Source: a virus. From it: a DNA stretch of 41,461 bases. Positions 13,816 through 31,128 of the stretch are shown here, piece after piece (within the stretch, counting starts at the first letter, position 1; each line of letters opens with the position of its first letter). The stretch is taken from the IMG/VR virus record IMGVR_UViG_3300032157_000026, positions 1-41,461 of that record, one strand, 5' to 3'. The position numbers and the translations under genes are program-made. The notes beneath the pieces are model-generated. The model saw nothing but the letters and a program-made list of their open reading frames with translations, ran no database searches and had not been told where the DNA came from.

Positions 13816-15036
13816 ATGGACTTCGTCGGTGACTACAGAGCTAAGCAGCGTCTTGCTGAGCAGCTACGCGCTCGCCAGAAAGCTATGCTTGGCGCCGAGA
13901 TCGATACTGGCCCTCTGGTCACTCAGGCCAGCGGCGCGTTCCCAGGGCAAGTCCAAGCCAACCCGTGGGGCAACCTCGCTAAGCTGGGTACGGCGTACTT
14001 TGCGAACCAAGCAGGCCGGAAAGCGGAGACCGCTGAGGAAGAAGCGCAGGCTGCGCGGCTGGAAGCCCTCCAAGGGATCATGGGAGGCGGTGCTGGTGCG
14101 CAAGGCGCGGGCGGTAGCCCCGGCCAACCCGGTGGAATGGGCGGTGGCGCGCAAGTTTTGACCCCAGAACGCGCCATGCAGCTCCAAGAGCTCGGTGTGG
14201 ACTCCGGCATCATCAAATCCCTCATGCCAAAGCAAGATGCCATCGGTGCTCTGGCCCAAGCGGCAGGTACTCGCCAAGGGCGAGCGTTCCTTGTCACCGC
14301 TGGCAAGATGACACAAGAGCAGAAGGAAGGCATAGACGCCGACGAGGCTGCCGGTAAGCTGGAAGAGATGAAGGCCAAGCAGGACAATTACCTGTTTGAG
14401 CAGCGTAACAAGACCTTCGCCCCAACGCAGGGTCGCGGAGAGACTGAGATCGAGTTTGCCCAGCGTGACCCAGAGGGGTATGCGAAGTACGTCGCTCAGA
14501 AGGCCAAGGCCAAGGGCGGCGAGGGAGGCGGCATGTACGAGAAGGAGTTCGCACGCAATCAGGCCAAGCAAGACGTCGCCCTTATCGGGGGCGCCCCCAA
14601 ACTCGAGCTTGGCGTCAAGCGTGTGGATGAACTTATCAACGCGGATGAAAAGAACCCGTACGAGAAGGGGGCCAAGTATCGCGCTATGGACATGGTCTCC
14701 AACGCCGCCACAGGCCAGAAGGCCTCTGACTTCGACCCAGATATTCAGGTCCAAGAGCAGGCCATCCAACAGTTCCACCTCGACGCCATGGAGCAAATGC
14801 GCGGCTTCGGCCAAGTAACTGAAAACGAACAGAAGATTATCGCCGCTACCCAATTTGACCGATACGACAGCCCTGCGGCGCGCACCAAGAAGCTGAAGGT
14901 CATCAAGGGCGCCTTACAGTCTGGCATGGATAAGGTCAAAGCGGCCAAGGAACGGGCTCGCACTGGCAAGGCTGTACTGGACGAGGGAAGCGGTACAATG
15001 ACGTCTCCCGGCGGTGTTTCCTACACTGTGGAGTAA
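13816..15036 (+). CDS. Internal virion-like protein, helical
   Basis: 406 residues. Helical throughout, starting MDFVGDYRAKQRLAEQLRAR; a Gly-rich hinge at about 91-112; charged Lys/Glu/Ala helices to the end, including MEQMRGFGQVTENEQKIIAA. No catalytic motif is visible. By position and composition it is probably one of the proteins ejected with the DNA. It starts one base after the preceding stop. Confidence 0.65.
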   Translation: MDFVGDYRAKQRLAEQLRARQKAMLGAEIDTGPLVTQASGAFPGQVQANPWGNLAKLGTAYFANQAGRKAETAEEEAQAARLEALQGIMGGGAGAQGAGGSPGQPGGMGGGAQVLTPERAMQLQELGVDSGIIKSLMPKQDAIGALAQAAGTRQGRAFLVTAGKMTQEQKEGIDADEAAGKLEEMKAKQDNYLFEQRNKTFAPTQGRGETEIEFAQRDPEGYAKYVAQKAKAKGGEGGGMYEKEFARNQAKQDVALIGGAPKLELGVKRVDELINADEKNPYEKGAKYRAMDMVSNAATGQKASDFDPDIQVQEQAIQQFHLDAMEQMRGFGQVTENEQKIIAATQFDRYDSPAARTKKLKVIKGALQSGMDKVKAAKERARTGKAVLDEGSGTMTSPGGVSYTVE

Positions 15037-16668: not shown

Positions 16669-19584
16669 ATGGCTCGCAACGGTAGCGGCACCTACGTCCT
16701 TCCTCCCAGCAACCCTGTCTCTTCTGGCACGGTTATCGAATCGGACTGGGCGAATGATACAATGGCCGACCTAGCAGCGGCCTTGACACAGAGCATCGCC
16801 TATGACGGACAGACCGTTCCAATTGCCAACCTGCCGATGGGGGGCTTCCACCACACCAATTGCAGCGACGCTACAGCTCGCAACCAGTACGCCACTCTGG
16901 GCATGGTGCAGGATGGTAAGCACACTCGCGTGCAGATTGTCAGTGGTGTTGATAACCTCGTCGGTACACTCGTTGGTGGCGCCACGGGCTACGTCGCTGG
17001 ATCGTTGATCACGTTCTTCGCCCCAGCGAACAACACTGGCCCTATGACGATGAACTACAACGGCATCGGTGCTCGGTCTATTGTGTCCTCTAATGGCCTG
17101 CCGCTCGTGGCTGGTAACGTGAAGACTAACGACTTCTTGATGGCTATCTACGACGGCACCCAGTTTAAATTGATTTCTTCCGTCACCTCCACTGTGGCGG
17201 TCAACCTGCTGCAACTCGCAACCACTGGTGAAGAGCGTCCAGGGGGCGTGTCCTTCCCGGCCATGACTATCGCTACTGGGACTAGCATCAATATTCCAGC
17301 TGGAACGGCGTGGGTCGTGCCCCCTAACAGTAACGATCCAGGTGACGCCATTAAGGTGACGTGGAATGCTCAGGCGTTGACTCTGACACTGATGGCTACC
17401 AGCTTCACAACTACCATCGCGGTTAACGAGTTTGGCCAGATCGTGCAGTTCGCTGGCAAGGCTGCTGGGGCTACCCTCCGCGGCAACGCCGTCTTGGGGG
17501 TTGTAGAGCATCTCACTGGCGTCGCCAACAAGGTTATCACTAAGCCGCTCATCTTTGCTGATGATGGCTACCGCATGACTGATATCGGCACTCTTTTGTC
17601 TAACACTATCATCACTGGTGGGCTCGTTATCCCCAACAGTATTTCGCCAATGCAGATGGACATCGCGGCTGGTACGATCTTCATGCCCGGTGGTGATGCC
17701 AACACCATCAATAGCCCGAACGTCTACGCTATCCCCCAGCAGGCTAACATCCCGTTTCGCACACTGGCCGGGCAGAGCCTTGTCAGCGGCGGTACTACTG
17801 CGAACGCTCAGGTTCAGCAATACGACCCTAACGGCTCTGGTGTGGTGACCACTCTGCCGAACAACGGCGATACTGTTATTCACCGCCTGTACTACCTCTA
17901 TGGGACGTACATTTGGGCCTACGGTCAGAAGATCTATACAAGCGTTGAGAACGCCCTGTCCATGATTAACTGGGACCGTTCGCAGTACGTCAAGTCTCTG
18001 TACCTTTCTGACGCTACGTTGGTGGCCGAGATCGTAGCTATCAAGAACACTACGTCGCTTGCCAACATCGCACAGGCAGCCATTGTCTGCCCCGGCGCTA
18101 TCAACTTCAGCATTGGCGGTCCTGGTGGCATCACCGACGCACCAATTGATGGCACCCCTTATGGTCGGCAGGACGCAGCATGGACCAAGGTCCTGCGTCA
18201 GACCAGCCCTACTGTTCTGACGAACATGAACATCAACGGGCCTACTCCTAGCTTTTCGCAGGTGCAGAACCCCGCTGGTGCCGGTACTGTCGGTCTGTTC
18301 CACAACAGCGGAACCTTCGGGTGGTTCAGTATTGAGACCGTCAACCCTGACGATAAGACCTACTTCCGTAGTCGCAACCCTGCGAACTCGGCTCTGCGCT
18401 TCACTACTACCTACGACCTCGCGGCTGGTTCGTGGGGCTTCCCAGCGGCCATCACGGTGGCTACCGCCATCACCGCTGGTGGTGCCATCAACGCTGCTAC
18501 TGTCGCCTCTACTGGCAACATGTCGGTAGGCGGCAACCTTGGCGTCGCCGGTCAGGTTGACGTTACCAGCCCCATCATCAACGCTGGTGGTCAGGCTGTT
18601 ATCCGTGGCCCAACCGTATCGGTAGTTGACGAAATTCCACGGTGGGCCGATGTCGGCGGTAGGCTTATGAAGGTTGGCCTGAAGTACCAGACCAGCCAGC
18701 TTGATACCACTGCTGGCAGACTCTTGGTGAACGGGGCATACGGTCTTGGCGCTAGCATCGGTCTCACTGCTGGCACTAACCTGAACACCATCGTCAACTC
18801 TGGGTTCTACCGAATCCTTGGTGCTCCGGTCAATGGACCGGGCACCCCCGCCAGCGTCACTGATGGTCTGCTGCTTGTGACTCGTGGTCTGGACACCATC
18901 TCCCAGCAAGCCACAGACTATGTATCGGGCCAGACTTGGGTTCGGGCTGGTTCTCCACCAGACGTAGGTGGCGTCGGCACTTGGGGGGCGTGGGGCGTCT
19001 GCCTTCGCGCGCAACTCGGTTATCAGACCGGGGTTTCTGACCTCAACAATCTGATAGTCCCAGGCTTCTACCAAGTCCAGCCCGGCATCCTCAATGCTCC
19101 AGAGAGCACATTTGCGGCGGTAATAGTAGAGCTGCTTGACCCCAACACGGTCATGCAGACCTACAAGTCAACCGGCCTTGTCCCTAAAGACTTCCGGCGC
19201 AACAAGTCCGGCGGCGGTTGGGGGGCGTGGTTCCAGGTTTACAGCGACTCTACTATCGCCCCTACAATGAACAGCGACTACTTTGATGCTGAGTCCCTGA
19301 GGTTCCGTAGGATCGGTAAGCAAGTATCGTTTACTGGCAAGATAGGGCGAAACACGCCGATGCTTCCTAGTGACGTGTGCTGTTTCATCCCCAATACCTA
19401 CGCGCCCAACACCAACGTATTCTGGACTGGGTTGGTGTCCTACAACAACCTAGGATCGCAGGTATGCGGCGTGCAGACAATCATAGCGAACGCGTGGATC
19501 CAGTTGGGGTTCGTCATCACTATAGGGGGAGCCCCGGCTGGCGTCTGCAACCTTGGGATTGGGCAATCGTGGTTCGTGCCATAA
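16669..19584 (+). CDS. Tail fibre with two pyocin-knob repeats
   Basis: 971 residues. The N-terminus NGSGTYVLPPSNPVSSGT and IESDWANDTMADLAAALT is the conserved virion-anchoring start of many podoviral fibres. The middle is beta-rich with Ala/Gly/Thr shaft-like repeats (about 590-640). Two pyocin-knob-like units follow at about 697-775 and 784-858, each with a LN.I..SGFY or LNNLIVPGFYQV opening and a GxWGAW close. The C-terminal 100 residues, with Cys and aromatic residues, probably bind the receptor. It is the last gene of the virion operon. Confidence 0.85.
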   Translation: MARNGSGTYVLPPSNPVSSGTVIESDWANDTMADLAAALTQSIAYDGQTVPIANLPMGGFHHTNCSDATARNQYATLGMVQDGKHTRVQIVSGVDNLVGTLVGGATGYVAGSLITFFAPANNTGPMTMNYNGIGARSIVSSNGLPLVAGNVKTNDFLMAIYDGTQFKLISSVTSTVAVNLLQLATTGEERPGGVSFPAMTIATGTSINIPAGTAWVVPPNSNDPGDAIKVTWNAQALTLTLMATSFTTTIAVNEFGQIVQFAGKAAGATLRGNAVLGVVEHLTGVANKVITKPLIFADDGYRMTDIGTLLSNTIITGGLVIPNSISPMQMDIAAGTIFMPGGDANTINSPNVYAIPQQANIPFRTLAGQSLVSGGTTANAQVQQYDPNGSGVVTTLPNNGDTVIHRLYYLYGTYIWAYGQKIYTSVENALSMINWDRSQYVKSLYLSDATLVAEIVAIKNTTSLANIAQAAIVCPGAINFSIGGPGGITDAPIDGTPYGRQDAAWTKVLRQTSPTVLTNMNINGPTPSFSQVQNPAGAGTVGLFHNSGTFGWFSIETVNPDDKTYFRSRNPANSALRFTTTYDLAAGSWGFPAAITVATAITAGGAINAATVASTGNMSVGGNLGVAGQVDVTSPIINAGGQAVIRGPTVSVVDEIPRWADVGGRLMKVGLKYQTSQLDTTAGRLLVNGAYGLGASIGLTAGTNLNTIVNSGFYRILGAPVNGPGTPASVTDGLLLVTRGLDTISQQATDYVSGQTWVRAGSPPDVGGVGTWGAWGVCLRAQLGYQTGVSDLNNLIVPGFYQVQPGILNAPESTFAAVIVELLDPNTVMQTYKSTGLVPKDFRRNKSGGGWGAWFQVYSDSTIAPTMNSDYFDAESLRFRRIGKQVSFTGKIGRNTPMLPSDVCCFIPNTYAPNTNVFWTGLVSYNNLGSQVCGVQTIIANAWIQLGFVITIGGAPAGVCNLGIGQSWFVP

Positions 19585-19733
19585 TCATAGCGGTGGTGCT
19601 GCTCTCGGGTTGCGTTCAGAGCTTCACGAAGAACGGCACCACCGTCATGTCTTACTGCCTCATAGGCGCGGTCTACATGGACCAAACCGAGGTTACTTTA
19701 GAGGAGAAGCCGGCGGAACATAAACCTCACTGA
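19569..19733 (+). CDS. Small lipoprotein, spanin candidate
   Basis: 54 residues from GTG 19569, overlapping the fibre end by 16 bases. A hydrophobic run VVRAIIIAVVLLSGC ends in a lipobox (LSGC), so the mature chain of about 40 residues would be lipidated on Cys15. Small outer-membrane lipoproteins near the end of late operons are often o-spanins (Rz1-like), but the mature part is not proline-rich and no Rz partner is adjacent. The ribosome site is weak; coupling to the fibre gene is likely. Confidence 0.55.
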   Translation: MVRAIIIAVVLLSGCVQSFTKNGTTVMSYCLIGAVYMDQTEVTLEEKPAEHKPH

Positions 19734-19830
19734 GCGGCCTTCCGCAGTTCGGGCACTTGTGAATGCAGATGCAATAATGATATCGCCAGCTACAGAACTT
19801 GCACTGCTTGATGCGTGGTGGCGGGTTCAT
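19693..19830 (-). CDS. Small six-cysteine zinc-finger-like protein
   Basis: 45 residues, with C10-C13, C20, C22 and C26-C29: opening MNPPPRIKQCKFC and a CPNCGRPL knuckle. The ATG is one base past the end of the upstream membrane protein, with GGTGG as ribosome site. It overlaps the plus-strand lipoprotein gene by 41 bases at the convergent end of the two transcription units. Metal binding is likely; function unknown. Last gene of the leftward operon. Confidence 0.6.
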   Translation of the reverse strand: MNPPPRIKQCKFCSWRYHYCICIHKCPNCGRPLSEVYVPPASPLK

Positions 19831-19831
19831 T

Positions 19832-19993
19832 CTAGCCACCAACGATCAACGCTAGCACAAATCCCAGCCATCCAACCATAGCCAGAACCCTGTAAATCTG
19901 TATGCAGGTGTTCTGGCTTTTCACCTTCGACCTCAGAATGACAATCTCATCGTGCTGCTTAACAATCTTCTCTTTGCAGTATTCAGCGTCCAT
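19832..19993 (-). CDS. Small coiled-coil protein with C-terminal membrane anchor
   Basis: 53 residues. The first 30 are charged and heptad-like (MDAEYCKEKIVKQHDEIVIL); the last 20 are hydrophobic (YRVLAMVGWLGFVLALIVGG), a tail anchor. ATAGG lies upstream of the ATG. A terminator-like hairpin separates it from the next upstream gene, so it may have its own promoter. A holin, pinholin or spanin role is possible but only from topology. Confidence 0.6.
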   Translation of the reverse strand: MDAEYCKEKIVKQHDEIVILRSKVKSQNTCIQIYRVLAMVGWLGFVLALIVGG

Positions 19994-20020
19994 TTTAGTA
20001 TGCCTATAGCCTGTGGTGGT

Positions 20021-20060
20021 GGTTAAAACAGGCCCATGGACGCATCCATTGGGCCTGTGG
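20021..20060 (-). terminator. Rho-independent terminator of the leftward operon
   Basis: On the minus strand ACAGGCCCA pairs with TGGGCCTGT (arms 20050-20058 and 20028-20036), extended by TGGA/TCCA in the loop, followed by TTTAACC. It follows the 20104-20358 gene. A second, less regular stem lies at about 20065-20098. Confidence 0.75.
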
Positions 20061-20103
20061 CTGGCGCTGCGCGCATACCCTGTATGGGTGTGCAGGCTAG
20101 CGC

Positions 20104-20358
20104 CTAGTGCAGCGTGCGCGCTGCTACAGCGTGTTTCTGGTAGCCCTTAATACTCGCGTTCCAGTCGTCGTTGGCCATTTCGCACAACTGGCAGAGTTCA
20201 GCATAGTTTTCCTTAATGAACTCCTTCAATTCTTCCCTCGGCATTGGGTACTGGTTGCCGCCCAGGAACGCCTCTTCTACAGCAATATCGGGGTCGCGCA
20301 CCTTAGCGTTCACACAAAACATGATATCTTCTACTATTTCACCCTTAATCCGCATCAT
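20104..20358 (-). CDS. Hypothetical protein, small and acidic
   Basis: 84 residues with a strong AAGGAG seven bases before the first of two adjacent ATGs. Mixed polar helices, e.g. REELKEFIKENYAELCQL, three Cys, no recognised motif. It lies after the modification cluster and after a palindromic element (20380-20413), so it may be separately regulated. Confidence 0.7.
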   Translation of the reverse strand: MMRIKGEIVEDIMFCVNAKVRDPDIAVEEAFLGGNQYPMPREELKEFIKENYAELCQLCEMANDDWNASIKGYQKHAVAARTLH

Positions 20359-20379
20359 AACACAACTCCTTACAGGTGG

Positions 20380-20413
20380 CTGGTGGTACTACCTATAGTA
20401 CCACCAGTAACAC
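20380..20413 (-). promoter_or_regulatory. Perfect 12-bp-arm palindrome with promoter-like centre
   Basis: CTGGTGGTACTA (20380-20391) and TAGTACCACCAG (20396-20407) flank CCTA. On the minus strand the centre reads TACTATAGG, similar to TACTATATAGG at the leftward early promoter, and the flank GTGTTACTGGTG (20402-20413) is identical to plus-strand 32710-32721 there. It can be an operator, a promoter without a good -35, or a terminator stem for the 20421 gene; no T-run is present. Confidence 0.6.
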
Positions 20414-20420
20414 GGTTGAG

Positions 20421-20714
20421 CTACTCTTTAGTATTGGCGATTATGTGCTCTTCTACAAGAAGTAGATAACACCTAAGATCACTAATATCGTCAAGGATCC
20501 CAGTAGGATCCACAGCCGCTTGGAAGATATCATAGCCTTTAGCCTCACATTGAGTTTCGATTCGGTCCCACTTGCGCGCCAACATCATGAAGGCACCGAT
20601 GCCTCCACGCTTGCGCCAGCTAGACCCGTAGTCCTTGTCCTTAACAATGAGCGTGGCTACATCATCCTTGCATAGCTCACGTATGCGCTCAAAGCTCGTT
20701 AGTACATAGCTCAT
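20421..20714 (-). CDS. Nmad1/DUF1599-like nucleotide-modification-associated protein
   Basis: 97 residues. DYGSSWRKRGGIGAFMM (28-44) and ARKWDRIE (46-53) match my knowledge of the DUF1599 family, also called nucleotide modification associated domain 1. The family is small, helical and often next to phage genes for modified pyrimidines; its biochemical role is not established. The start overlaps the HD gene stop by ATGA, so it is co-translated with the modification cluster. Confidence 0.7.
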   Translation of the reverse strand: MSYVLTSFERIRELCKDDVATLIVKDKDYGSSWRKRGGIGAFMMLARKWDRIETQCEAKGYDIFQAAVDPTGILDDISDLRCYLLLVEEHIIANTKE

Positions 20715-21235
20715 TTCAAGTACCTCGAACGGAAGTCAGAGATCACACACTCGCACTCCAGGCGGTACGCCGGGTCGTGCTCTATGCTATCCTGGATGTA
20801 GCCGACATAGCGTTCCCCAATGGGGATGATATGCTGGTTGCCCATCTTCAGTTCTTCAGTACATTTTAGCAGGCCGTCCAACTTGTCGCACAGGTCCACC
20901 AGATGCTTCTCGTCATCAGTGAGAATGTCGTAGGCCGTGGTAGGGTGGATTTTGGCGATGGCCTCCTCTTCCTTCAGTTGGATCTGGTTCCGTATTTCAT
21001 GGGGCAGCGCTCGCTTAATGTTGCTGGGGATGTCCCCCACGGCGTACTCGCCCATGTCGTGGAGGAGGCCTGCCATCAGGCAGGCTTTGCTGGCCCGACC
21101 CTCTGTCAGCACCAGCATCAGGTTAACCACGTTGAAGCTGTGCTCGGCCACAGTCTCCTCAGTGATCATACGACACATATGGTAGCGCTTGATGATGCCA
21201 GCCTCGCGCGCCAGCTTAATTTGATGTAATAGCAT
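20711..21235 (-). CDS. HD-domain 5'-deoxynucleotidase, YfbR-like
   Basis: 174 residues from ATG 21235, which has AAGGAGAGG upstream; longer starts would run far into the upstream gene. Metal ligands are visible: AEHS (H32), LLHD (H59, D60), E63 and GDIPSNIK (67-74), then CDKLDGL (116-122) supplying the last Asp. This series is characteristic of YfbR-type nucleotidases that dephosphorylate dNMPs. In a phage making a modified thymidine it would plausibly remove dTMP or another competing dNMP. It overlaps the end of the hydroxymethylase gene by 20 bases. Confidence 0.8.
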   Translation of the reverse strand: MLLHQIKLAREAGIIKRYHMCRMITEETVAEHSFNVVNLMLVLTEGRASKACLMAGLLHDMGEYAVGDIPSNIKRALPHEIRNQIQLKEEEAIAKIHPTTAYDILTDDEKHLVDLCDKLDGLLKCTEELKMGNQHIIPIGERYVGYIQDSIEHDPAYRLECECVISDFRSRYLK

Positions 21236-22190
21236 GTTTCCTCTCCTTAGCTCTTTCAAGCCATTCAATTGCCGCCTTCGACCAATCTTCCGCCTCAACA
21301 CACGAAGCAAGGTAGAGCGCTTCATTTGCTTCACCATTCTTCCAGGCGTGCCAGCTCTGCACCATCGGGGCCACTGTCCCGTCAAAGAATGGCTCATGGA
21401 AGTAGTCAATCTTTCCGTTGCAGAGGTCAATGCAGTCTTGGTCAAACTCCGCCCAACTGTGGACCAGAGGTTGGGGTTTGGGGTACTGACACCACTCCCA
21501 GAGGCCGTTGAAGTTATCCTCCAACAGGTGGAAGTGCCGCTCGTAGATGTGCAGGTTGGCCGACATGTGATACCAGCGGCCCACCGGCACGCCGATCCGT
21601 GCTGCCATATACTCTTGGAGCATGGTCATATGCACAGCGTTCGCCCCGCACAGACCGAACACCAAGTCGTTACTGCGGTTGGTGATGATGAAGTCCAGCT
21701 CCCCCTCCGCCACCCGGCAGATGATACTCATATTGCAGGGGTAGTCCTTGCTGGTGCCCTCCAAGTCGCTGTAGCCATCCCACATTGCTAGGACGCATCG
21801 GCGGTCATCGGGGTTCTTTTGGAGCTGGCTACAGACTCGTTCAACTTGGTCGTAGCCGAAGTGACGTCGCCAGCGGTGTCCATAAGCGGCGTTGAATGTG
21901 AGCCCATCGTCGCTGTAGGTCATCATGTTCTGGTTAAACTGCCGGACAAACTCAGTGTCGTTACGGCCAGCAATCATCCAGAGGCCTTCTACCAAATGAA
22001 AGAAGGGGTTGGCGTTACGCTCAGCGTGGAACAGGACTCTTTCGTGCGGGCAACGTACCTCCATAAACAGCGGCTTCATGAGGGAAAGCGCTGGCCCGTT
22101 TCGGGTGCTGACAGGCTTTCCGTAAGCCTTAATCAGCGGCATAAGCCGCTGATAGGCCGAGTTCACATTACGTGTACTCACTTCAAACAT
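21216..22190 (-). CDS. Thymidylate-synthase-superfamily pyrimidine hydroxymethylase (dUMP type)
   Basis: 324 residues, GGAGGA ribosome site. Catalytic Cys152 lies in DYPCNMS; FHLVEGLWMIAGRND (64-78) supplies the usual N-terminal Glu; NRSND (171-175) and GLCGAN (179-184) replace the RSxD and GLPFN motifs of canonical ThyA; SANLHIYERH (210-219) is the dUMP/ribose binding segment. The NRSND...GANAVHMTMLQEY form is shared with MilA-like and phage pyrimidine hydroxymethylases. Asn184 in the base-recognition position favours uracil over cytosine. Predicted to convert dUMP to 5-hydroxymethyl-dUMP using methylene-tetrahydrofolate; ordinary dTMP synthesis remains an alternative. Confidence 0.8.
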   Translation of the reverse strand: MFEVSTRNVNSAYQRLMPLIKAYGKPVSTRNGPALSLMKPLFMEVRCPHERVLFHAERNANPFFHLVEGLWMIAGRNDTEFVRQFNQNMMTYSDDGLTFNAAYGHRWRRHFGYDQVERVCSQLQKNPDDRRCVLAMWDGYSDLEGTSKDYPCNMSIICRVAEGELDFIITNRSNDLVFGLCGANAVHMTMLQEYMAARIGVPVGRWYHMSANLHIYERHFHLLEDNFNGLWEWCQYPKPQPLVHSWAEFDQDCIDLCNGKIDYFHEPFFDGTVAPMVQSWHAWKNGEANEALYLASCVEAEDWSKAAIEWLERAKERKHAITSN

Positions 22191-22965
22191 AAATCCTCCG
22201 GCGTCCTGGGCTATTAGTCACATAGCGCATAAACTTCTGAAACTCGCAGAGAGTGTTCTGCAAGTCTTGCATGTGAAACTCTGGTATTTTCCCCCGTACC
22301 TCCCACTTCAGGTCCGTTAGCCGGTCCATGAAGTTGCGCTCCGTAGTGCTGGGGCCGTAGAGGATATCCAATCCCTTCTTGCTCCCCGGCCCCATGACGG
22401 CAAAGTCGTACCAGTCTGGGGCGTAGTGGAGGTGCTGGTCGTTCTTCAGGTCTGCGACAATCTGTCCAGCCAGAAAGCTCCCAAGCCCATCAATTTTCCG
22501 TAGACAATCAAAACATTCACGGCACGATAGGTTTGAGATGTACGCGTCACGTACTTCTTTGATGAGACGGTCCACGTAATCGATTTTATTGATGCGCTCG
22601 CCGCAGGTGCTGACAACATAGGCGGTATGGAACACCTTTTCCCCGGCGAACATCTTCGCCTTCAGATGGTCAATTCCCTTGTCCTTGTCGTAGTAGTCAC
22701 GCACGCTGGGGGCGTAGTTGAACAGGCGCGCTGCCGTGTAGAACTCTGGACGCTTGTGCATCGCTAGGTCAAGCTCAATACGCAGCGCTCGGAGCTCTTT
22801 AGTACCCCGGTCGTCTTCCCGCCTGTTTTCGCAGAAGTGGTAGTGCTGTAGGATCGGGTCCTTGGTCCACGGCCCTGGGACTCCTGATCGCTTTCTTGTG
22901 CCGATAGCCTGCCGCTCGTTAACGTAATAGATGTACCTTTCAAGCTTGCCTTGATGTATGCTCAC
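22183..22965 (-). CDS. HhH protein of the 5-hmdU DNA kinase helical / aGPT-PPlase2 family
   Basis: 260 residues from GTG 22965, overlapping both neighbours. NERQAIGTRKRSG (16-28), PWTKDPIL (32-39), F44 and NRREDDRGTKEL (47-58) form the N-terminal signature of this family; a helix-hairpin-helix KIDGLGSFLAGQIVADL spans 157-173; DWYDFAVMGPGSKKGLD (184-200) matches the Gly-rich C-terminal motif. These proteins act on 5-hmdU in phage DNA (phosphorylation or later transfer steps). No P-loop GxxxxGK[ST] is present, so kinase activity cannot come from this chain alone. Confidence 0.7.
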   Translation of the reverse strand: MSIHQGKLERYIYYVNERQAIGTRKRSGVPGPWTKDPILQHYHFCENRREDDRGTKELRALRIELDLAMHKRPEFYTAARLFNYAPSVRDYYDKDKGIDHLKAKMFAGEKVFHTAYVVSTCGERINKIDYVDRLIKEVRDAYISNLSCRECFDCLRKIDGLGSFLAGQIVADLKNDQHLHYAPDWYDFAVMGPGSKKGLDILYGPSTTERNFMDRLTDLKWEVRGKIPEFHMQDLQNTLCEFQKFMRYVTNSPGRRRIYV

Positions 22966-23743
22966 GATATAAGCACCCGAGTTGATACGCCCTCTTCCAC
23001 TGGACGCGGAAGTCTACGCGTTTACCACCGAACCAGCCCTTCTTAACCTCCTTTTCAACGACCGTAACTACGTCTGGGAACAGCTCAGCCAGCGCCCTGA
23101 CCGCGGTCGCTTGCTGCTCTGGTGTACGATGTAAGGAGCAGCCACCGGGGGCATTGGACGTCCCAATTTGGTCCCAGAACAAGTTGCACCAGATGGCTGT
23201 CTTCTCTCCCCGCATCAAGAGGGTCAAATTCAACACCATGTCGGCCAAGATGGGCCAGTAGTCCGTCTTTATCGGGCCAATCTTGTCCAAGTTTACCGCC
23301 TGGAGCGCGTTTATGCGGGTACACTCCTTTACCCCGATAGGGGCATTGTTCCCCATGGCCCGAGGGTGGAGCCCTACCAGCGGATAGTCATCCAGCATAA
23401 GCTCCAGCACTTCCAGGCTATTGTTGATCTGGGTGGCGTTCGCTGTTATCAATGACTTTGAGTTGCCGGGACTGCGCACGGAGAATCGAAGGTCGTCATC
23501 GATAATAAGGATACGGCGCCCAAGCTCAGGGTAATGACCGTTAACGATAAGATTAAACTTCTCGCTGTACGTGAGAGTTTCCTCTCCCTCGCTGAGGATG
23601 TTGACTTCGGGGTGATTCTTTGCATGGCGTGATACCTCGTCTTTGGGGCAGACAATGTAGGTGTCTGGCCACCAGTCCCAGGGGATGCTCGCTAGGGTGC
23701 GAACATTGCCCACCCTGCCGCGAGTAATTATCGCTATCTTCAT
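22940..23743 (-). CDS. GT-A-type DNA-base glycosyltransferase, TAGT-like
   Basis: 267 residues from ATG 23743 (AGGAGAGG six bases upstream). MKIAIITRGRVGNVRTLASI opens a GT-A Rossmann strand, TYIVCPKDEVSRH follows, and the metal-binding DDD sits in RRILIIDDDLRFSVR (76-90). The RGR..RTL.S.P start plus this DDDL.F motif fits the TET/JBP-associated glycosyltransferase (TAGT) group, which is predicted to glycosylate hydroxymethyl bases. Here the acceptor would be 5-hydroxymethyluracil made by the adjacent gene. No donor specificity can be read. First gene of the tightly overlapping modification cluster. Confidence 0.7.
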   Translation of the reverse strand: MKIAIITRGRVGNVRTLASIPWDWWPDTYIVCPKDEVSRHAKNHPEVNILSEGEETLTYSEKFNLIVNGHYPELGRRILIIDDDLRFSVRSPGNSKSLITANATQINNSLEVLELMLDDYPLVGLHPRAMGNNAPIGVKECTRINALQAVNLDKIGPIKTDYWPILADMVLNLTLLMRGEKTAIWCNLFWDQIGTSNAPGGCSLHRTPEQQATAVRALAELFPDVVTVVEKEVKKGWFGGKRVDFRVQWKRAYQLGCLYREHTSRQA

Positions 23744-23766
23744 CAAAGTCCTCTCCTAAATGTCAA

Positions 23767-23787
23767 TCGGCCCCATAACGGGGCCGA
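23767..23787 (-). terminator. Intercistronic hairpin
   Basis: TCGGCCCC and GGGGCCGA pair around a 5-base loop between the 23805 gene and the glycosyltransferase. The minus strand continues TTGACATTTAGG, so only a short T-run; attenuator or processing stem. Confidence 0.5.
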
Positions 23788-23804
23788 CTGGTGGGGTCCA
23801 GCGA

Positions 23805-24338
23805 TCAAGCTGGAGGGGTGTATGCAGTCACGCTGCAAGCACCATCGCGCAGGTAGAAGCTCAGGAATCCTTTGTCACCACCGGCTTCGAGGTACTCTGC
23901 GATGGTTTGACCATCGGCCATGATAACAGCATACTGGCTTCGTGCTCCTTTATACGCGGCGATCTTGGCCTTCTGTTCTTCGCTGATGTTGATGGTGGAA
24001 GCTTCGTGGGTCGGCAGTCGCCGCACCGCAGGAGCGCGAACAGGCTTAACGGGGATGGGATTACCGGCCTCGTCCAGAAGCTGATTTCCCTGCTCATCGA
24101 GCTGATACTCGATCACCTTGGCTGGCTTCGCTTTCCGTGGTTTGGCCATTTTCACAGGACCCTGGACTTGTGTCCCCTCTTCGTTAAGCAGAGGCGAACC
24201 ATCTTCATTCCACTGGGGGTAGAGCTTCGGTTCTTTTGGGGTCTTTTCGCGAGCTTTGCGCTCTTTGGTTGGCTGTACTTCGGCGGGGGTGTCTACGGCT
24301 TGGGCTTCGTCAGCGAGGCCATTTTCATAGTCAGTCAT
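23805..24338 (-). CDS. Hypothetical protein with repeated acidic/turn motifs
   Basis: 177 residues from ATG 24338, with AGGTG eight bases upstream. The N-terminal half is disordered and Lys/Pro/Glu rich; NEDGSPLLNEEGTQV and DEQGNQLLDEAGNPI are two related 15-residue units about 45 apart, separated by a basic linker. The C-terminal third looks folded (SQYAVIMADGQTIAEYLEAG). I do not recognise it. It lies between the helicase and the modification genes and appears to have its own promoter. Confidence 0.7.
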   Translation of the reverse strand: MTDYENGLADEAQAVDTPAEVQPTKERKAREKTPKEPKLYPQWNEDGSPLLNEEGTQVQGPVKMAKPRKAKPAKVIEYQLDEQGNQLLDEAGNPIPVKPVRAPAVRRLPTHEASTINISEEQKAKIAAYKGARSQYAVIMADGQTIAEYLEAGGDKGFLSFYLRDGACSVTAYTPPA

Positions 24339-24372
24339 TTCAAAGGCACCTATCAAGGGTTAGTGGAAAAGA

Positions 24373-24393
24373 GCCCCCTAAAACTTAGGGGGC
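24373..24393 (-). terminator. Rho-independent terminator after helicase gene
   Basis: GCCCCCTAA and TTAGGGGGC make a perfect 9-bp stem with a 3-base loop. On the minus strand TCTTTTCC follows. It lies downstream of the helicase gene and at the inferred +1 of the next transcript. Confidence 0.75.
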
Positions 24394-24399
24394 AGTATT

Positions 24400-24427
24400 A
24401 CTATACCACAATGGCCGTCCAGAACAA
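24400..24427 (-). promoter_or_regulatory. Sigma70-like promoter, leftward
   Basis: Minus strand TTGTTC (24427-24422), 16-base spacer, TATAGT (24405-24400). It would drive the 23805-24338 gene and the modification cluster. The predicted start falls on the edge of the terminator stem at 24373-24393. Confidence 0.55.
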
Positions 24428-24434
24428 GCACTAT

Positions 24435-25898
24435 TTACTCCGTGCTTAGGTTATTACGCAATAAGGAAATGAATTCTGATTCCGCCATCTGCTTACTGCG
24501 ACTGGACTGTAGGATGCTGCGCTCCACCCCGCAATCCAGCATGATGCGGTAGATCGTTACGCATTCGGCCTTGCTCCCAGGCCGGGCAATGCGCAGATGC
24601 GACTGGTAGGTACGCTCCCAACTGGGGTCTCCCCCAAACCAAATGACGTTGGAGCAGTTGTTCTGCAACCCATCAATCCCAAGTGCTACGGACTGAGGGT
24701 GACCCAGCATGAGGGGGATGTGACCAGCACTGAACAGATTACAGGTCGCTACCCCAGATCCGACAGAAACTCCCCCACCGACTCTAGGAACGTCGTAACC
24801 AAGTCTTCGGTTAATTCTGTCGAAGTCATGCCGGTAGGCGTATAGGCAGAAGGCGGGCTCGCCATCAAGCTCTGCGAGGATGTTTTCGAGGGCGTCGAGC
24901 TTGCCCTCGTGGATGGGGATGTAGGTGTTCGGATCGCCCTCCGTATCAATGATGGCTCCTTGGGCAAACTGGCGGAGCTTTCCCCATAGAACACCCGAGT
25001 TTGGTGCCATAACCACTGCGTCACCAAGTACGAGTAGGAACTCCTTCTTAAGCTCATTGTATTTCTCCCGTATGGATGGGGGCATGGGAACCCACACGAT
25101 GACCTCCATAGTTGGCATGTCATCATCGCCTTCAGAGACGATGGTGGTGGGGGCGATTTTTGCTGCAACCCGCTGAGCTGCTCCCGGTAATTCAACATAG
25201 CCGAAGCCGCTCTCATCCGGGCGCATGTACTGGTTGCGGAAGTGAGTGATGAAACGCCCAAGGTCTTTCCCCAGATCAGTGATGTAGCATTGGAAGAAGA
25301 GGTTCTCAAGCTTACCGGGGCGCGGAGTCCCAGTCATGACAACCCGACGGTTGGTGTACTGGAGGTAACATTCCAGGGACTTGGCCCTCAGAGTGTTTGG
25401 GTCTTTGAAGGCAGTAGACTCATCGCACACCAGCATGACCCTCTTGCCTTCAAACCAAGCGATGGCGTATGGGTTCCCCCTGTAGACCTTGCGCTTGGCA
25501 CCTGGATTTGTGCATATCGGCCCAAACTCCGTGCCGATGAGTCCTTCGAAGTTCATCAGGTAGACGTCAACGTCGGACTCCAGCGCTGCCTTGCGCGCCT
25601 TTTCCCCGCCATGCACGATAGCGAAGGTGAGGTGGGCAAAGTCTGCCCAGTAGTTCATCTGGTGCGGCCAGGAGGTGGTGATAACCCGCAGGGGAGCTAT
25701 CACCAACATGCAGTCCACCATATCCAGCTTCTTAAGTATGTCGTAGACCTTAAGAGCCACCGCTGTCTTCCCTCGCCCGGGCTTCAAGAAAAGCCTGAAG
25801 CCTGCTTCCCGTACTCCCAAGGACATACTTTTCATCTGCAGGGGTCGTGGCTCGAACTTTGGCTTGCACTGTTCGTAGGGCAACATCTGCGTCGTCAT
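24435..25898 (-). CDS. SNF2-like DEAD/DEAH-box helicase
   Basis: 487 residues from ATG 25898 (GAGGT upstream; a TTG 21 bases earlier is possible). Walker A KPGRGKT (39-45), motif Ia APLRVITTSW (68-77), motif II LVCDESTAF (157-164), motif III VVMTGTPRP (186-194) and the C-terminal domain with QSVALGIDGLQNNCSNVIWF and a final SHLRIARPGSK motif VI, the SF2/SNF2 order. Such phage helicases accompany family A polymerases and probably remodel replication or recombination intermediates. It overlaps the VRR-NUC gene by 149 bases in another frame, so one of the two starts or ends may be misjudged. Confidence 0.85.
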   Translation of the reverse strand: MTTQMLPYEQCKPKFEPRPLQMKSMSLGVREAGFRLFLKPGRGKTAVALKVYDILKKLDMVDCMLVIAPLRVITTSWPHQMNYWADFAHLTFAIVHGGEKARKAALESDVDVYLMNFEGLIGTEFGPICTNPGAKRKVYRGNPYAIAWFEGKRVMLVCDESTAFKDPNTLRAKSLECYLQYTNRRVVMTGTPRPGKLENLFFQCYITDLGKDLGRFITHFRNQYMRPDESGFGYVELPGAAQRVAAKIAPTTIVSEGDDDMPTMEVIVWVPMPPSIREKYNELKKEFLLVLGDAVVMAPNSGVLWGKLRQFAQGAIIDTEGDPNTYIPIHEGKLDALENILAELDGEPAFCLYAYRHDFDRINRRLGYDVPRVGGGVSVGSGVATCNLFSAGHIPLMLGHPQSVALGIDGLQNNCSNVIWFGGDPSWERTYQSHLRIARPGSKAECVTIYRIMLDCGVERSILQSSRSKQMAESEFISLLRNNLSTE

Positions 25899-26160
25899 GG
25901 ACTTGTACCTCAAAGCCAATATCGCGTAGCAGTTGGTGGATATAGAGCTGAAGCTTCCTGGGTTCTTCCCCGGGCCGCTTGAACTCTATGAAGAGGAAGT
26001 TGCCTCCCTCCCACATGATTAGTCGGTCTGGCCAGCCCCGACGCCCTTGAAGGTTGAGTTTAAGGGGCACAACAACGATGTTGTGCTCCCTAGCCCATTT
26101 GTTCAGGTTTAAGCAGAATCGGTTTTCGATCTGCATCTCCATATCGTTGTTACGGGGCAC
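25750..26160 (-). CDS. VRR-NUC domain nuclease
   Basis: 136 residues from GTG 26160, which has GGAGGAG nine bases upstream; ATG 26142 is an alternative. E12, then RGWPDRLIMW (41-50) with Asp45, FIEFKRPG (57-64) with Glu59 and Lys61, and Q71 in KLQLYIHQL form the PD-(D/E)XK core of the VRR-NUC family. Phage members are small stand-alone nucleases encoded beside helicases and likely cut branched DNA. The last 45 residues run over the start of the helicase gene in a different frame. Confidence 0.85.
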   Translation of the reverse strand: MPRNNDMEMQIENRFCLNLNKWAREHNIVVVPLKLNLQGRRGWPDRLIMWEGGNFLFIEFKRPGEEPRKLQLYIHQLLRDIGFEVQVHDDADVALRTVQAKVRATTPADEKYVLGSTGSRLQAFLEARAREDSGGS

Positions 26161-26800
26161 TTCGGCACTCTCCTCCTGCCCTCCATGATATCGGGCAGTA
26201 GCGGCAGGCCTCATGGCTGGGGGTAGCGGTGTAGACCGTGTCCGCGTTTACAATGTCAATTTGCTCCATCAATTTGACGATTTGGATTTGTCTATCCCCG
26301 TTGTTGTATGTACGGGGGACCGTGTGTAGAGGTATGTCAAGATACACAAACTCCGTTTGGCATAGAGGGGTGTCGTACTCGTCCATCGCCATGTACATCA
26401 GCCCCTGCCCCTCGTGGTCGGGGTACACCCTCCCTGACTTCCAGTCTAGGATGCGGTGGGTATTCCCCACTGTCAGCTTCAGGTCCGCCTTGCCCCGAGC
26501 GTAGGCGTTGGGATCGTCGAAGCCACAGGGCTTCCAATCCTTGTCTACTGCTAGCGCGGCCTCGGGGCTGGGGTTGAAGATGGTCAGGTTCTCCATGAAG
26601 CGCTGCCACGGCTTGAGCGTGGCGTTGCGCGTTGGATACCGGCCCCCCTTAAAGAACTCCTCCAGCATGGCATGGAGCTCAGTGCCGCGCTTGGCCGACG
26701 GGCTATCAGGGGTCCTGTTCCCCAGGACGTAGCACCAATGCCACAGTTTCGGGCACTTCTTGTAGGTGCTCAGGCTGCTGTAACTCTGTGGGCGCCTCAT
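26150..26800 (-). CDS. Cas4/RecB-like PD-(D/E)XK nuclease with Fe-S cysteines
   Basis: 216 residues. SLSTYKKCPKLW (9-20), KRGTELHAMLE (37-47, His43), ARGKADLKL (101-109, Asp106), RILDWKSG (116-123, Asp119 and Lys121) and QGLMYMA (132-138) are the RecB/Cas4 nuclease motifs. Cys16 with C199, C202 and C212 could hold a 4Fe-4S cluster as in Cas4 and AddB. It would act as an exonuclease on single-stranded ends in replication or recombination. The ATG overlaps the polymerase stop (ATGA). No CRISPR array is present. Confidence 0.85.
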   Translation of the reverse strand: MRRPQSYSSLSTYKKCPKLWHWCYVLGNRTPDSPSAKRGTELHAMLEEFFKGGRYPTRNATLKPWQRFMENLTIFNPSPEAALAVDKDWKPCGFDDPNAYARGKADLKLTVGNTHRILDWKSGRVYPDHEGQGLMYMAMDEYDTPLCQTEFVYLDIPLHTVPRTYNNGDRQIQIVKLMEQIDIVNADTVYTATPSHEACRYCPISWRAGGECRSAP

Positions 26801-28566
26801 TTCTTAGCGGCCTCCGCCCATGTATTGCCGATACCCATCGTCAACCTCATAGGTACATCACATGGCAGAGCGTTCGCAGCCTCGAGCATAACTTCGTAAA
26901 TGATTGCCTTATGCTCAAGTGGCGCGCACAGGTTAATTTCGTCATGGACCGTACCCAGTAGACGGTAGTAGAAATGTCTAAGGGCGAGCTCTTCGTCTGC
27001 ATAGATGATGGCCTCTTTGGTTTGGTCGGCGGCGCTGCCTTGGATGAGCAGGTTGAGGCTCTTGTACGCCCACACTCTGCCATTACTTGGGGGTTCACAG
27101 TAGCAATACCGTCCCCCCAGCGTCTTAATGGGCAGGCCCAACTCGAAACGCCGCTTGCAGTCGCGGTCGAGACGCACCACGTCAGGGAGGTAAGCCTTGA
27201 TGGCATTCCGTAAACTGCTGGCCCGGTCGTAGCTACACTCAAGCTTGTCTGCAAGAACTTGTGCTCCCATTGCATAGATTAGTCCCAGTAGAATAACTTT
27301 GCTCTGCTTGCGGGTAACGTCTCCTCCAACAAGCTCCATGACAAAGATGTAGGGGTCCATCTCCGGGTCGTCGTTAAATGCTTGCAGGAGCAGCCCATCC
27401 TCAAAATGTGCCGTGAGGCGAGGTTCCTGCGCCTTGAAGTCAAATGAATACCAAACACAACCATCGTCAGGCAGACAGTATGACCGCATATTGGGGAAGT
27501 GATCGCCGAAATAGTCCAAGCCTTGTTCATCGGGAATGTTCTGCCCATTTGGCGCGGTGCTGCTTAGCCGACCAGTACGAGTACCGTAGCCTTCAGGGTT
27601 CCGCACTTGGTTATAGGTCGGGTTGATGGTTCCCCCGTTGGCGTCAGCATAGGCGATCCATGGCCCCATGAAAGTACCGGTGAGGGTGGCATACGTCGCG
27701 CGGCTGCGCAGCATGCTCTGCAACTCCTTGTCGCTTTCCAGGACCTTCTCCAAGCTCGCCTTGTTGGCGGACAGCTTGCCGGTGGGCGTGGAAAGGAACC
27801 CCTTGTACCCAGCATCGCAGAGAGCGTTAACCAGCTCTCGGTCGCTCCCAGGGTTCATTCCCGGGCAGTGCAGGCGCTCCCGCACCAAGTCATCCAAAGT
27901 GTGGAGTTTGTGCATCGCCGTATGGTAGTCGTGCCGCAGGCGCTCCAGATCTATCTTAATGCCCTTGGCCCGGATTCCGTTGAGTATGGGAGCCAGTACG
28001 CGCTCCCTGTCGTAGGGGGGATGCATCATGTCCAACTTGGGATAGCAGTACTCGTGCAACTGGTACGCCATTTCGGTGTCAGACTCAGCATACTTCCCAA
28101 CTAAGTCCCCCGGAGCTCGACAGATGTAGGCGCCGCATTGTTTCCGACTGCGGCACTCAGGCACATGGGCCATAATCCAGTCGTAGAGCTCTTGCTGGTC
28201 GTCTGGAGGCATCCCCAGCCAGTTGTCGGCTAGGTCCTTCAGGCGAAGGCTGGGAGTGTTTGGGTCTATCAAATAGGCCTCAAACATGGTGTCATGGGTA
28301 AGCAGGGGATCGCGCTGAGGCATGTCAAACCAGTACTCGGCCACCCACAGGTCAAAGGCAAAGATGTTATGCCCGACCAGCTCCTGGTCCCACACACGGA
28401 TAAGCTCCTTCTTAAAGTCCTCCTTCGTGCAGTTGTTGTTCGTTGGATGGCCCCATGCCCAGTAGTGATTGGTTCCATCGTGGTCGCGTATGGAGCAGCC
28501 CACAGGTTTCGGGGGAGTAGAGGCACCGTCAACAATTGCGTCTGTTTCAAAGTCTAGGGAAATCAT
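26797..28566 (-). CDS. polA: Family A DNA polymerase with 3'-5' exonuclease domain
   Basis: 589 residues from ATG 28566 (GGAG six bases upstream). Exonuclease motifs: ISLDFETD (2-9, Asp5 and Glu7), LVGHNIFAFDL (63-73), YAESDTEM (159-166). Polymerase motif A YSFDFKAQEPRL (373-384), motif B RKQSKVILLGLIY (419-431), motif C VHDE (540-543). No 5'-3' exonuclease domain. The residue matching E. coli Phe762 is Leu427. This is the phage replicative polymerase; it sits upstream of two nuclease genes in one overlapping operon and must accept the predicted modified thymidine triphosphate. Confidence 0.95.
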   Translation of the reverse strand: MISLDFETDAIVDGASTPPKPVGCSIRDHDGTNHYWAWGHPTNNNCTKEDFKKELIRVWDQELVGHNIFAFDLWVAEYWFDMPQRDPLLTHDTMFEAYLIDPNTPSLRLKDLADNWLGMPPDDQQELYDWIMAHVPECRSRKQCGAYICRAPGDLVGKYAESDTEMAYQLHEYCYPKLDMMHPPYDRERVLAPILNGIRAKGIKIDLERLRHDYHTAMHKLHTLDDLVRERLHCPGMNPGSDRELVNALCDAGYKGFLSTPTGKLSANKASLEKVLESDKELQSMLRSRATYATLTGTFMGPWIAYADANGGTINPTYNQVRNPEGYGTRTGRLSSTAPNGQNIPDEQGLDYFGDHFPNMRSYCLPDDGCVWYSFDFKAQEPRLTAHFEDGLLLQAFNDDPEMDPYIFVMELVGGDVTRKQSKVILLGLIYAMGAQVLADKLECSYDRASSLRNAIKAYLPDVVRLDRDCKRRFELGLPIKTLGGRYCYCEPPSNGRVWAYKSLNLLIQGSAADQTKEAIIYADEELALRHFYYRLLGTVHDEINLCAPLEHKAIIYEVMLEAANALPCDVPMRLTMGIGNTWAEAAKK

Positions 28567-28579
28567 CAGAAACTCCAAA

Positions 28580-28595
28580 GGGGGCTTTCGCCCCC
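28580..28595 (-). terminator. GNRA-capped hairpin ahead of polymerase gene
   Basis: On the minus strand GGGGGC, GAAA loop, GCCCCC, TTT. The polymerase ribosome site GGAG starts immediately after. It could attenuate polymerase expression or protect the upstream mRNA. Confidence 0.7.
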
Positions 28596-28602
28596 TCGCT
28601 AG

Positions 28603-29349
28603 TTAGAACTTCGCTGGTTTGGATGCTGTTTCTGCTGCTCTTTCAGTTGGAGGATCATAGACCTTCTGTGCGATCTCCAGAGCCGCAGGAATTCGGGCTA
28701 TGAGTCCGCCCAGCATGCTCCGATCAACTACGCCAATATCGGTAAAGGTCAGCTTGTACTGGCTCTTCTGGTCAGGCACGCTGCCTACCCGAGTGATCAA
28801 AGCCAGTGGTGGGGATTTGTACAGAGCGCCGCACTTCTGAACATACATCTGCCAGTTGTTCACTGAAGTGACAGGAGGTTTAAGGATCGCAATTTCAGCC
28901 GTGGCAATGTCTTCTGGCCGAGTGGAGGCGGGGATCACCGCCAAGCTGCGAGTGTTCTTGCAAGCCTTGCCCCGGCCACCGTCGGGGTCACTTTTCCACT
29001 GGTTGGCCCAGCACTCGGCACAGGTGGAGCACTGGGGCTTGCTGCTCGCAGGGTGCGGGGCCATATCCGGGCCTCCATCCTCAGAGTACGCAAAGCAGAC
29101 CGGGCTGGTCAGGTTATTGGGGTCAAACTTGCCCTCGTACAGCGTATTCGCGTGGACACTTGCGACTACAATAACATCCAGTTTGTTGTCTGGGCATGGA
29201 TTCCCATTGTAGGTCAGTACCCCCGCACGGGTGCCGATTGTTAGCCCGCTGGGTCGCTCTATCTCGCCGGCCCTCTTGGCCAACCGAGCGAGCTCCTCAT
29301 CGTAGTTTACTATCTCGGATCTCTTAGTGTCTTTGCTCTCAGTAGTCAT
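28603..29349 (-). CDS. Cys4 protein next to polymerase, possible ssDNA-binding protein
   Basis: 248 residues. The middle has PQCSTCAECWANQW (C107, C110, C113) and C130 in GKACKNTR, a likely zinc site; the surroundings alternate beta strands (KLDVIVVASVHANTLYEG) and are compatible with an OB-like fold. It ends in a Lys/Pro-rich tail rather than an SSB acidic tip. The position directly upstream of polA in the operon suggests a DNA-binding replication accessory. I recognise no named family with certainty. Confidence 0.6.
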   Translation of the reverse strand: MTTESKDTKRSEIVNYDEELARLAKRAGEIERPSGLTIGTRAGVLTYNGNPCPDNKLDVIVVASVHANTLYEGKFDPNNLTSPVCFAYSEDGGPDMAPHPASSKPQCSTCAECWANQWKSDPDGGRGKACKNTRSLAVIPASTRPEDIATAEIAILKPPVTSVNNWQMYVQKCGALYKSPPLALITRVGSVPDQKSQYKLTFTDIGVVDRSMLGGLIARIPAALEIAQKVYDPPTERAAETASKPAKF

Positions 29350-29359
29350 TTCTCAGTAC

Positions 29360-29494
29360 TCAGAATTGATGCAACAGGTTAATGATCCACAATTTGATCC
29401 CAGTCCACATGGCACGCAGGGAAGTGAATTTGTTCCCTGCCCGGAACCCAACGTAGAAGCCGACACCCATCAGTACAGCGATCAACAAGGTCAT
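29360..29494 (-). CDS. Small membrane protein
   Basis: 44 residues, GGAG seven bases before the ATG. MTLLIAVLMGVGFYVGFRAG is a hydrophobic N-terminal segment with glycines, followed by a basic/aromatic amphipathic tail WTGIKLWIINLLHQF. It sits between the vWA and Cys4 genes. Function unknown; could be a membrane-targeting or superinfection-related peptide. Confidence 0.6.
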   Translation of the reverse strand: MTLLIAVLMGVGFYVGFRAGNKFTSLRAMWTGIKLWIINLLHQF

Positions 29495-29508
29495 TATAGT
29501 CTCCAGAA

Positions 29509-29531: not shown

Positions 29532-29541
29532 CCGATTGCGG

Positions 29542-31127: not shown

Positions 31128-31128
31128 A

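Follow-up and report, generated by a model that had tools for sequence, protein, structure and literature searches.

A predicted thymine-glycosylation cassette with an exchangeable partner gene in a 41-kb phage genome

Among the closest described counterparts of the cassette analysed here are the thymidine hypermodification loci of the Mesyanzhinovviridae phages M6, YuA and PaMx11, in which the genes for a protein of the 5-hmdU DNA kinase helical group (HMUDK_hel, hereafter HhH), a thymidylate synthase (TS) homologue resembling dUMP hydroxymethylases and an HD nucleotidase follow one another as they do here, close to the DNA polymerase gene. In these loci HhH is preceded by a 5-hmdU kinase, with an amino acid:DNA transferase (ADDT) and tailoring enzymes, whereas in the present genome a TAGT-like glycosyltransferase (GT) takes that place and neither kinase nor ADDT is found. 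The HMUDK_hel family (PF18723), which some records call 'aGPT-PPlase clade 1', is also present in ViI, and ADDT (PF18724), to which the name aGPT-PPlase2 corresponds, occurs in M6 (gp51), PaMx11 (gp46), ViI and the related locus L132.

A second point of comparison is the TAGT of phage T6 (beta-glucosyl-HMC-alpha-glucosyltransferase), which combines PF20691 with a reported GT-A fold (PMC13216743); the window GT falls in this family too and is predicted to have this fold. T6 TAGT puts a second glucose onto glucosylated hmC, alongside alpha-GT, whereas the window GT is accompanied by a TS of the deoxyuridylate type. In a 2026 study, 288 of 753 phage genomes featured TAGT homologues without an alpha- or beta-GT, and the function of these homologues was left open (PMC13216743).

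The sections consulted of a report on HTVC023P-type pelagiphage podoviruses describe TS and aGPT-PPlase1 as partners; in Clade II genomes, this region also holds genes for a 5'-deoxynucleotidase and for a beta-glucosyl-HMC-alpha-glucosyltransferase (PMC9599517). The initial annotation of the window could not say whether its combination of genes had been described; judging by those sections it had been in part, although they propose no glycosylated-thymidine pathway and analyse neither kinase/GT exclusivity nor partner switching (PMC9599517). The Brevibacterium phage LuckyBarnes (NC_047851), a siphovirus, has consecutive genes for TS, two GTs of the TAGT-like kind and HMUDK_hel, with no kinase and no ADDT. 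It differs from the window in its gene order, its two GTs, an HD gene that was not found, and its unrelated host and morphotype. The 40-kb genome of phage isolate ctUhy936 (MW202897) has adjacent GT, TS homologue and HD genes as in the window but, unlike the window, no HMUDK_hel match.

The window is the whole 41,461-nucleotide stretch that was analysed. As initially annotated, five overlapping or abutting genes run along its minus strand from 23743 to 20421:

GT, 22940..23743, minus strand: TAGT-family glycosyltransferase with a predicted GT-A fold, 267 aa, in the variable partner slot
HhH, 22183..22965, minus strand: stand-alone HMUDK_hel protein, 260 aa, overlapping the end of the GT gene
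TS, 21216..22190, minus strand: TS homologue, predicted to be a probable deoxyuridylate (dUMP) hydroxymethylase, 324 aa
HD, 20711..21235, minus strand: YfbR-like HD nucleotidase, 174 aa, predicted as a likely 5'-deoxynucleotidase
N1, 20421..20714, minus strand: small conserved protein, 97 aa

A terminal repeat, in which the first 127 bases recur at the end, suggests that the genome is complete. Its major capsid protein shares 78% identity with that of BUCT555, which is called a podovirus, and 60% with that of Mx8; the description of the phage as short-tailed thereby gains indirect support. A megablast search of positions 19600-31300 against phage records gave no match. Each cassette protein has relatives in hundreds of IMG/VR loci, with GT and HhH adjacent in many of them, and since the synteny of the whole cassette recurs across independent contigs, the arrangement is more than chance.

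The TS homologue matches PF00303 (1.1e-24) and phrog_5131 (2.8e-98), and its best phage matches are the deoxyuridylate hydroxymethylases of PaMx11 (43.5% identity) and M6 (40.8%). It retains C152 and N184, the latter aligned with the TS Asn. Its best match of solved structure is the CMP hydroxymethylase MilA (9.6e-20), which has Asp at the N184 position. The Asp that replaces TS Asn177 in dCMP-specific hydroxymethylases, a mark of T-even glycosylated 5-hydroxymethylcytosine, is absent here, and the window contains no sign of a cytosine pathway. The protein scores far below every ThyA equivalog cut-off in NCBIfam, so that the suggested dUMP-hydroxymethylase-like identity is upheld and an assignment to ThyA is not; it is a probable deoxyuridylate hydroxymethylase by homology. 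The HD protein was recognized correctly as YfbR-like (PF12917, 1.7e-17; YfbR structure 2paq, 2.1e-6). Its gene probably starts at the ATG at 21235, which lies behind an aggag motif, rather than at the TTG at 21445 of the long open reading frame, and the product is likely a 5'-deoxynucleotidase that removes competing dNMPs.

The GT gene starts at the ATG at 23743 with aggag upstream. Its product scores 39.9 bits against PF20691 TAGT (5.8e-10; cut-off 27.5), in agreement with the earlier TAGT-like label, and matches phrog_842 at 1.4e-33. The AF2 model (pLDDT 95.7) predicts a GT-A fold, with GnT-I (1fo8) as the best Foldseek match (E 8.9e-6), and a DDD motif (D82, D83 and D84) is invariant across 66 GT homologues. 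A profile search against PDB sequences gave no useful match. Because T6 TAGT works on glucosyl-hmC, the acceptor class of the window GT can only be inferred.

On the surface, an ordinary thymidylate synthase might simply lie, by coincidence, beside a GT whose substrates are sugars of the cell wall or surface. Both folds are common to such enzymes, and the GT-A models also match RmlA-type nucleotidyltransferases in Foldseek. However, this explanation is very improbable: the TS groups with hydroxymethylases, and in many divergent phages the GT, whose family is the DNA-modifying TAGT, lies next to HMUDK_hel and TS.

HhH matches PF18723 at 2e-34, which bears out its earlier assignment to the 5-hmdU DNA kinase helical group. 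The accompanying label aGPT-PPlase2 does not hold, and HhH was rejected as an amino acid transferase of that type, ADDT being a separate family. The AF2 model (pLDDT 95.5) has a DNA-glycosylase-like helical fold; its top Foldseek match is the glycinyltransferase PaMx11 gp46 (8z2n; probability 0.97, E 0.16, which is not significant by E-value), followed by MutY. A profile search against PDB sequences was again uninformative, NCBIfam assigns no name to HhH, GT or N1, and the two key window proteins had no defence match in PADLOC.

In the whole window, no 5-hmdU DNA kinase (PF18748) was detected with the Pfam model or with our own profile, and matches to ADDT and to TET/JBP dioxygenases (PF12851) are likewise absent. 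The window shares TS and HMUDK_hel with M6/ViI-type systems but not kinase and ADDT, and shares TAGT with TET/JBP-associated TAGT systems but not the dioxygenase. A pathway without TET/JBP oxidation had been predicted; the missing PF12851 match agrees with this, but an absence of oxidation is unproven, as a gene for a 2OG-Fe(II) oxygenase of a family other than TET/JBP lies 6.5 kb upstream of the cassette on the same strand (30217-30897).

These absences bear on the idea of an amino-acid-type hypermodification as in M6 and ViI, in which a kinase of the host, or one that went unrecognised, would activate 5-hmdU, HhH would attach an amine to it, and the GT would decorate the product. The HhH family occurs in every M6/PaMx11-type system examined, and its best structural match is the 5-PmdU glycinyltransferase mentioned above. 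Nevertheless, such a scheme is quite unlikely, given that the true ADDT belongs to a different family missing from the window and from all GT contigs tested, that these contigs also lack the kinase, and that kinase and GT never co-occur. Since the genome has no kinase, ADDT or TET/JBP, glycosylated 5-hydroxymethyluracil, as initially proposed, remains the best prediction for a thymidine-type TS with a TAGT-family GT, and we consider it probable that the cassette makes this base in phage DNA.

In the predicted pathway, the TS homologue would convert dUMP to 5-hydroxymethyl-dUMP, as its homology and active-site residues suggest, while the HD nucleotidase would lower competing dTMP and N1 may aid nucleotide supply. 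Once host and phage enzymes had formed the triphosphate, the family A polymerase of the phage would incorporate it. The step that follows replication would fall to the TAGT-like GT-A enzyme, which would use a nucleotide-sugar to glycosylate the 5-hydroxymethyl group in cooperation with HhH; the most likely role of HhH is to bind DNA and present the 5-hmdU base.

The gene beside HhH varies among relatives. The comparison covered about 190 related loci; the 61 dereplicated HhH-anchored loci comprise 43 with a TAGT-like GT, seven with the kinase, six with a GT4-like protein, four with an unassigned family and one with none, proportions that should not be read as population frequencies, as loci were ranked by similarity to the window protein. 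Exactly one partner class is present in 60 of the 61, and none has two. The zero overlap of kinase with the other classes has a chance of 1.8e-8 under independence, in a test that ignores relatedness among the 61 loci, and in 32 bacterial or archaeal loci kinase and GT classes are again never found together. The HhH tree requires at least 16 partner changes. At the level of sequence, the slot is filled by one class per locus, with HhH and TS constant. GT-HhH and kinase-HhH fusions were sought across the loci and none was found; a long M6 frame considered as a fusion proved to be no more than an open frame that overlaps the gene for the kinase.

A replacement is seen in the near relative L095, a syntenic locus, where an unrelated GT4-like gene occupies the position of the window GT and no TAGT occurs anywhere. 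Around the slot, identity to the window is 59-84% (N1 62%, HD 67%, TS 72%, HhH 71%, SNF2 84%, DNA polymerase 81%), and the neighbour u183 is 50% identical to its counterpart. In a single-sequence search of the PDB, the GT4-like protein matched only PimA (E 0.006), and profiles of the GT4-like and unassigned families gave no useful PDB match.

The HhH residues D172, D184, C240, E241 and K244 are conserved whichever partner class adjoins. This equal conservation suggests that HhH is a common protein for handling 5-hmdU, with transferases that can be exchanged for one another. More broadly, HMUDK_hel could be a general 5-hmdU-presenting protein beside which non-homologous transferases are swapped one for one, the exposed thymine group changing fast while the platform stays, a generalization that we hold tentatively. 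The 5-hmdU kinase is reportedly active without HhH, which weakens a strict adaptor role, and HhH apparently cannot be strictly needed in every such system, because MW202897 has GT-TS-HD without it.

HhH, which keeps many invariant polar residues, may itself be catalytic, acting on 5-hmdU DNA by base removal, exchange or other chemistry before phosphorylation and glycosylation rather than as a presenting subunit. Its glycosylase-like fold, the residues conserved with all partners, and D184, which lies roughly at the catalytic Asp of HhH glycosylases (a register argument only), fit such a role. Chromosomal relatives adjoin HTH/ImmA-IrrE-like genes and MazG_C, and aGPT-Pplase is listed as a predicted defence domain (PMC13092281). 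However, no activity of HhH is known and MW202897 has no HhH gene despite its GT, TS and HD, so that a catalytic HhH seems rather unlikely.

HMUDK_hel may be reread as the constant element around an exchanged modifying enzyme, no longer tied to the kinase. Its linkage to TAGT makes 5-hmU DNA a substrate that can be tested for the TAGT homologues of at least some of the 288 TAGT-only genomes (PMC13216743), and it points to gene pairs with which new modified DNAs could be made and the restriction of modified thymine studied. The genome size and partner set had been thought unusual; this did not survive comparison, as 17 of the 26 long HhH contigs tallied are 38-44 kb and the same gene set recurs in many contigs without the kinase. 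The cassette is not rare; what this analysis adds is the one-class-per-locus slot, its at least 16 changes and the GT/GT4-like replacement in L095.

The fifth protein, N1, had been labelled Nmad1/DUF1599, a name that is not supported: its PF07659 match (E 0.061, 14.1 bits) falls under the 25-bit cut-off, and three homologues have no Pfam match. N1 is 54-62% identical in L095, L096 and L004. The comparison indicates that the gene is real, because it is kept in the same place in relatives and a similar domain forms the C-terminus of the LuckyBarnes TS.

Five overlapping genes lie on the minus strand of the window, from 23743 to 20421:

22940..23743 (-), TAGT-family glycosyltransferase (GT)
22183..22965 (-), stand-alone HMUDK_hel protein (HhH)
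21216..22190 (-), thymidylate synthase homologue (TS)
20711..21235 (-), YfbR-like nucleotidase (HD)
20421..20714 (-), small protein (N1)

The GT gene starts at ATG 23743; the likeliest start of HD is ATG 21235, inside the end of the TS gene. Both have aggag upstream. In line with the initial annotation, GT, HhH, TS and HD score above the Pfam cut-offs of PF20691 (TAGT), PF18723 (HMUDK_hel), PF00303 and PF12917 (YfbR-like), respectively. Its DUF1599/Nmad1 label for the fifth protein was dropped for the neutral name N1, because the Pfam match to PF07659 reaches only E = 0.061 and none of three homologues has any match. The first 127 bases recur as a direct terminal repeat at the end of the record (1-127 and 41335-41461), so the genome is probably complete, at about 41.3 kb.

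Scans of IMG/VR recovered 339 relatives of GT and at least 541 of HhH. Custom HMMs were applied to 156 loci. GT, HhH and TS commonly stand together, in the order GT-HhH-TS or HhH-GT-TS, and HD and N1 often accompany them. Several HhH-TS loci lacking TAGT carry another protein immediately before HhH, either GT4-like (Glyco_transf_4 below threshold in 4 of 5; PimA at E 0.006 for one) or from a second family that matches nothing in Pfam or the PDB, a candidate new transferase:

Unassigned slot family before HhH
L102 4561-5499
L120 6872-7993
L136 6811-7962
L162 7006-7986
L173 5449-6558

In 61 dereplicated HhH-anchored loci the partner is TAGT-like in 43, a 5-hmdU kinase in seven, GT4-like in six, unassigned in four and absent in one, and no locus holds two partner classes. 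The lack of overlap between kinase and other classes has a chance of 1.8e-8 if partners are independent, a figure that ignores relatedness. Whole-record searches of 30 GT-type or otherwise kinase-less records, namely LuckyBarnes, MW202897, the window and 27 contigs of 35-51 kb, found neither the kinase nor the amino acid:DNA transferase (ADDT). Among 32 further loci from bacterial and archaeal genomes, mostly metagenome-assembled, kinase and GT classes never occur together, and ADDT-type genes are confined to kinase loci.

A tree of 92 HhH proteins, made with a quick method, implies no fewer than 16 changes of partner. If only the TAGT label is scored, 10 changes are required by well-supported branches. 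One supported group unites the window and L004, both with a TAGT-like GT, with L095, which has a GT4-like protein. The gene order of L095 is collinear with the window, and identities are 62% for N1, 67% for HD, 72% for TS and 71% for HhH, and in the flank 50% (u183), 84% (SNF2), 59% (VRR), 59% (exonuclease) and 81% (DNA polymerase). No TAGT gene occurs anywhere on the L095 contig. Thus, by gene content, the predicted modifying enzyme is exchanged one for one. HhH residues kept with both kinase and GT partners include R49, D52, A115, K127, F164, D172, D184, GPG 192-194, C240, E241 and K244, and no alignment column separates the two groups. The gene for u183 (23805-24356, minus strand; 183 aa, without family match) is conserved less than its neighbours, and in close relatives always lies between the variable slot and the SNF2 helicase. 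A VWA-domain protein (29542-30177, minus strand) has an 80% identical counterpart in L095.

The constant part of the cassette (HhH, TS and usually HD and N1) would make and handle 5-hmdU, with HhH either presenting the base or acting as a catalyst itself, and the variable slot would decide what is attached, most likely a sugar in the window. MW202897 has GT, TS and HD with no HMUDK_hel match, and so shows, as far as such matches go, that HhH need not be universal in these systems.

The best solved match of TS is the CMP hydroxymethylase MilA, ranking above every ThyA structure. TS has asparagine (N184) where MilA has aspartate; this asparagine recognises uracil in thymidylate synthase. Among phage proteins of annotated function, TS is closest to the PaMx11 (43.5% identity) and M6 (40.8%) enzymes, and M6-type phages contain 5-hmdU-derived bases (PMC6449724). 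Because of these affinities, the retained asparagine and scores that fall short of every ThyA equivalog cut-off, TS is likely a deoxyuridylate hydroxymethylase, in line with the dUMP-hydroxymethylase-like role first assigned to it.

HMUDK_hel takes in HhH, M6 gp55 and PaMx11 gp50, and ADDT (PF18724) takes in M6 gp51 and PaMx11 gp46; since Pfam places these in separate families, HhH was rejected as an amino acid transferase. The kinase family HMUDK_HMUD1 matches M6 gp54, ViI Vi01_061c and, weakly, PaMx11 gp49. These genes are annotated as terminase small subunits in their records:

5-hmdU kinase genes recorded as 'terminase small subunit'
L008 (M6) 5686-6249
L009 (PaMx11) 5218-5787
L171 (ViI) 18204-18866

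The window search found no kinase, ADDT or TET/JBP match, the last as originally claimed. A 2OG-Fe(II) oxygenase other than TET/JBP (phrog_61, 2OG-FeII_Oxy_3; 30217-30897, minus strand) lies in the same strand block as the cassette, and is partly visible at the L095 edge.

AlphaFold2 models from alignments of 66 (GT) and 78 (HhH) natural homologues reached pLDDT 95.7 and 95.5. The Foldseek hits of GT are GT-A enzymes, led by N-acetylglucosaminyltransferase I (E 8.9e-6), together with RmlA-type nucleotidyltransferases; a 2026 paper likewise classes T6 TAGT as GT-A (PMC13216743). HhH has no significant match; its top hits are gp46 of PaMx11, the 5-PmdU glycinyltransferase (prob 0.97, E 0.16), followed by MutY glycosylases, which fits a DNA-glycosylase-like fold. 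In L190, L197, L198, L199 and L201 (contigs labelled Bacteroidota or Phenylobacterium), HMUDK_hel-like proteins are present but TS and transferase are not. In the two inspected, L190 and L198, these proteins adjoin HTH and ImmA/IrrE-like genes, with MazG_C also in L198. A list of predicted defence domains includes aGPT-Pplase (PMC13092281).

Sugars on thymine derivatives are already known from YerA41, whose modification is large and probably an oligosaccharide (PMC9023294), and from SP-15, whose glucosylated dihydroxypentyluracil is made by a different gene set (PMC5977210). Pelagiphage podoviruses reportedly combine TS, aGPT-PPlase1, a 5'-deoxynucleotidase and a glucosyltransferase of the same kind as GT in one region (PMC9599517). 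The 2026 paper left solitary TAGT in 288 phage genomes unexplained (PMC13216743). The GT-HhH pairing may have been described before.

The window major capsid protein is 60% identical to that of Mx8 and 78% to that of Stenotrophomonas phage BUCT555 (MW291508), its nearest annotated relative by this protein and a podovirus by its description. BUCT555 encodes PurZ (13954-15033; 321.8 bits against an NCBIfam cut-off of 300) alongside a MazG-like gene and an HD protein, which suggests 2-aminoadenine in its DNA. Despite closely related capsid proteins, the two phages thus seem to differ in genome-modification strategy.
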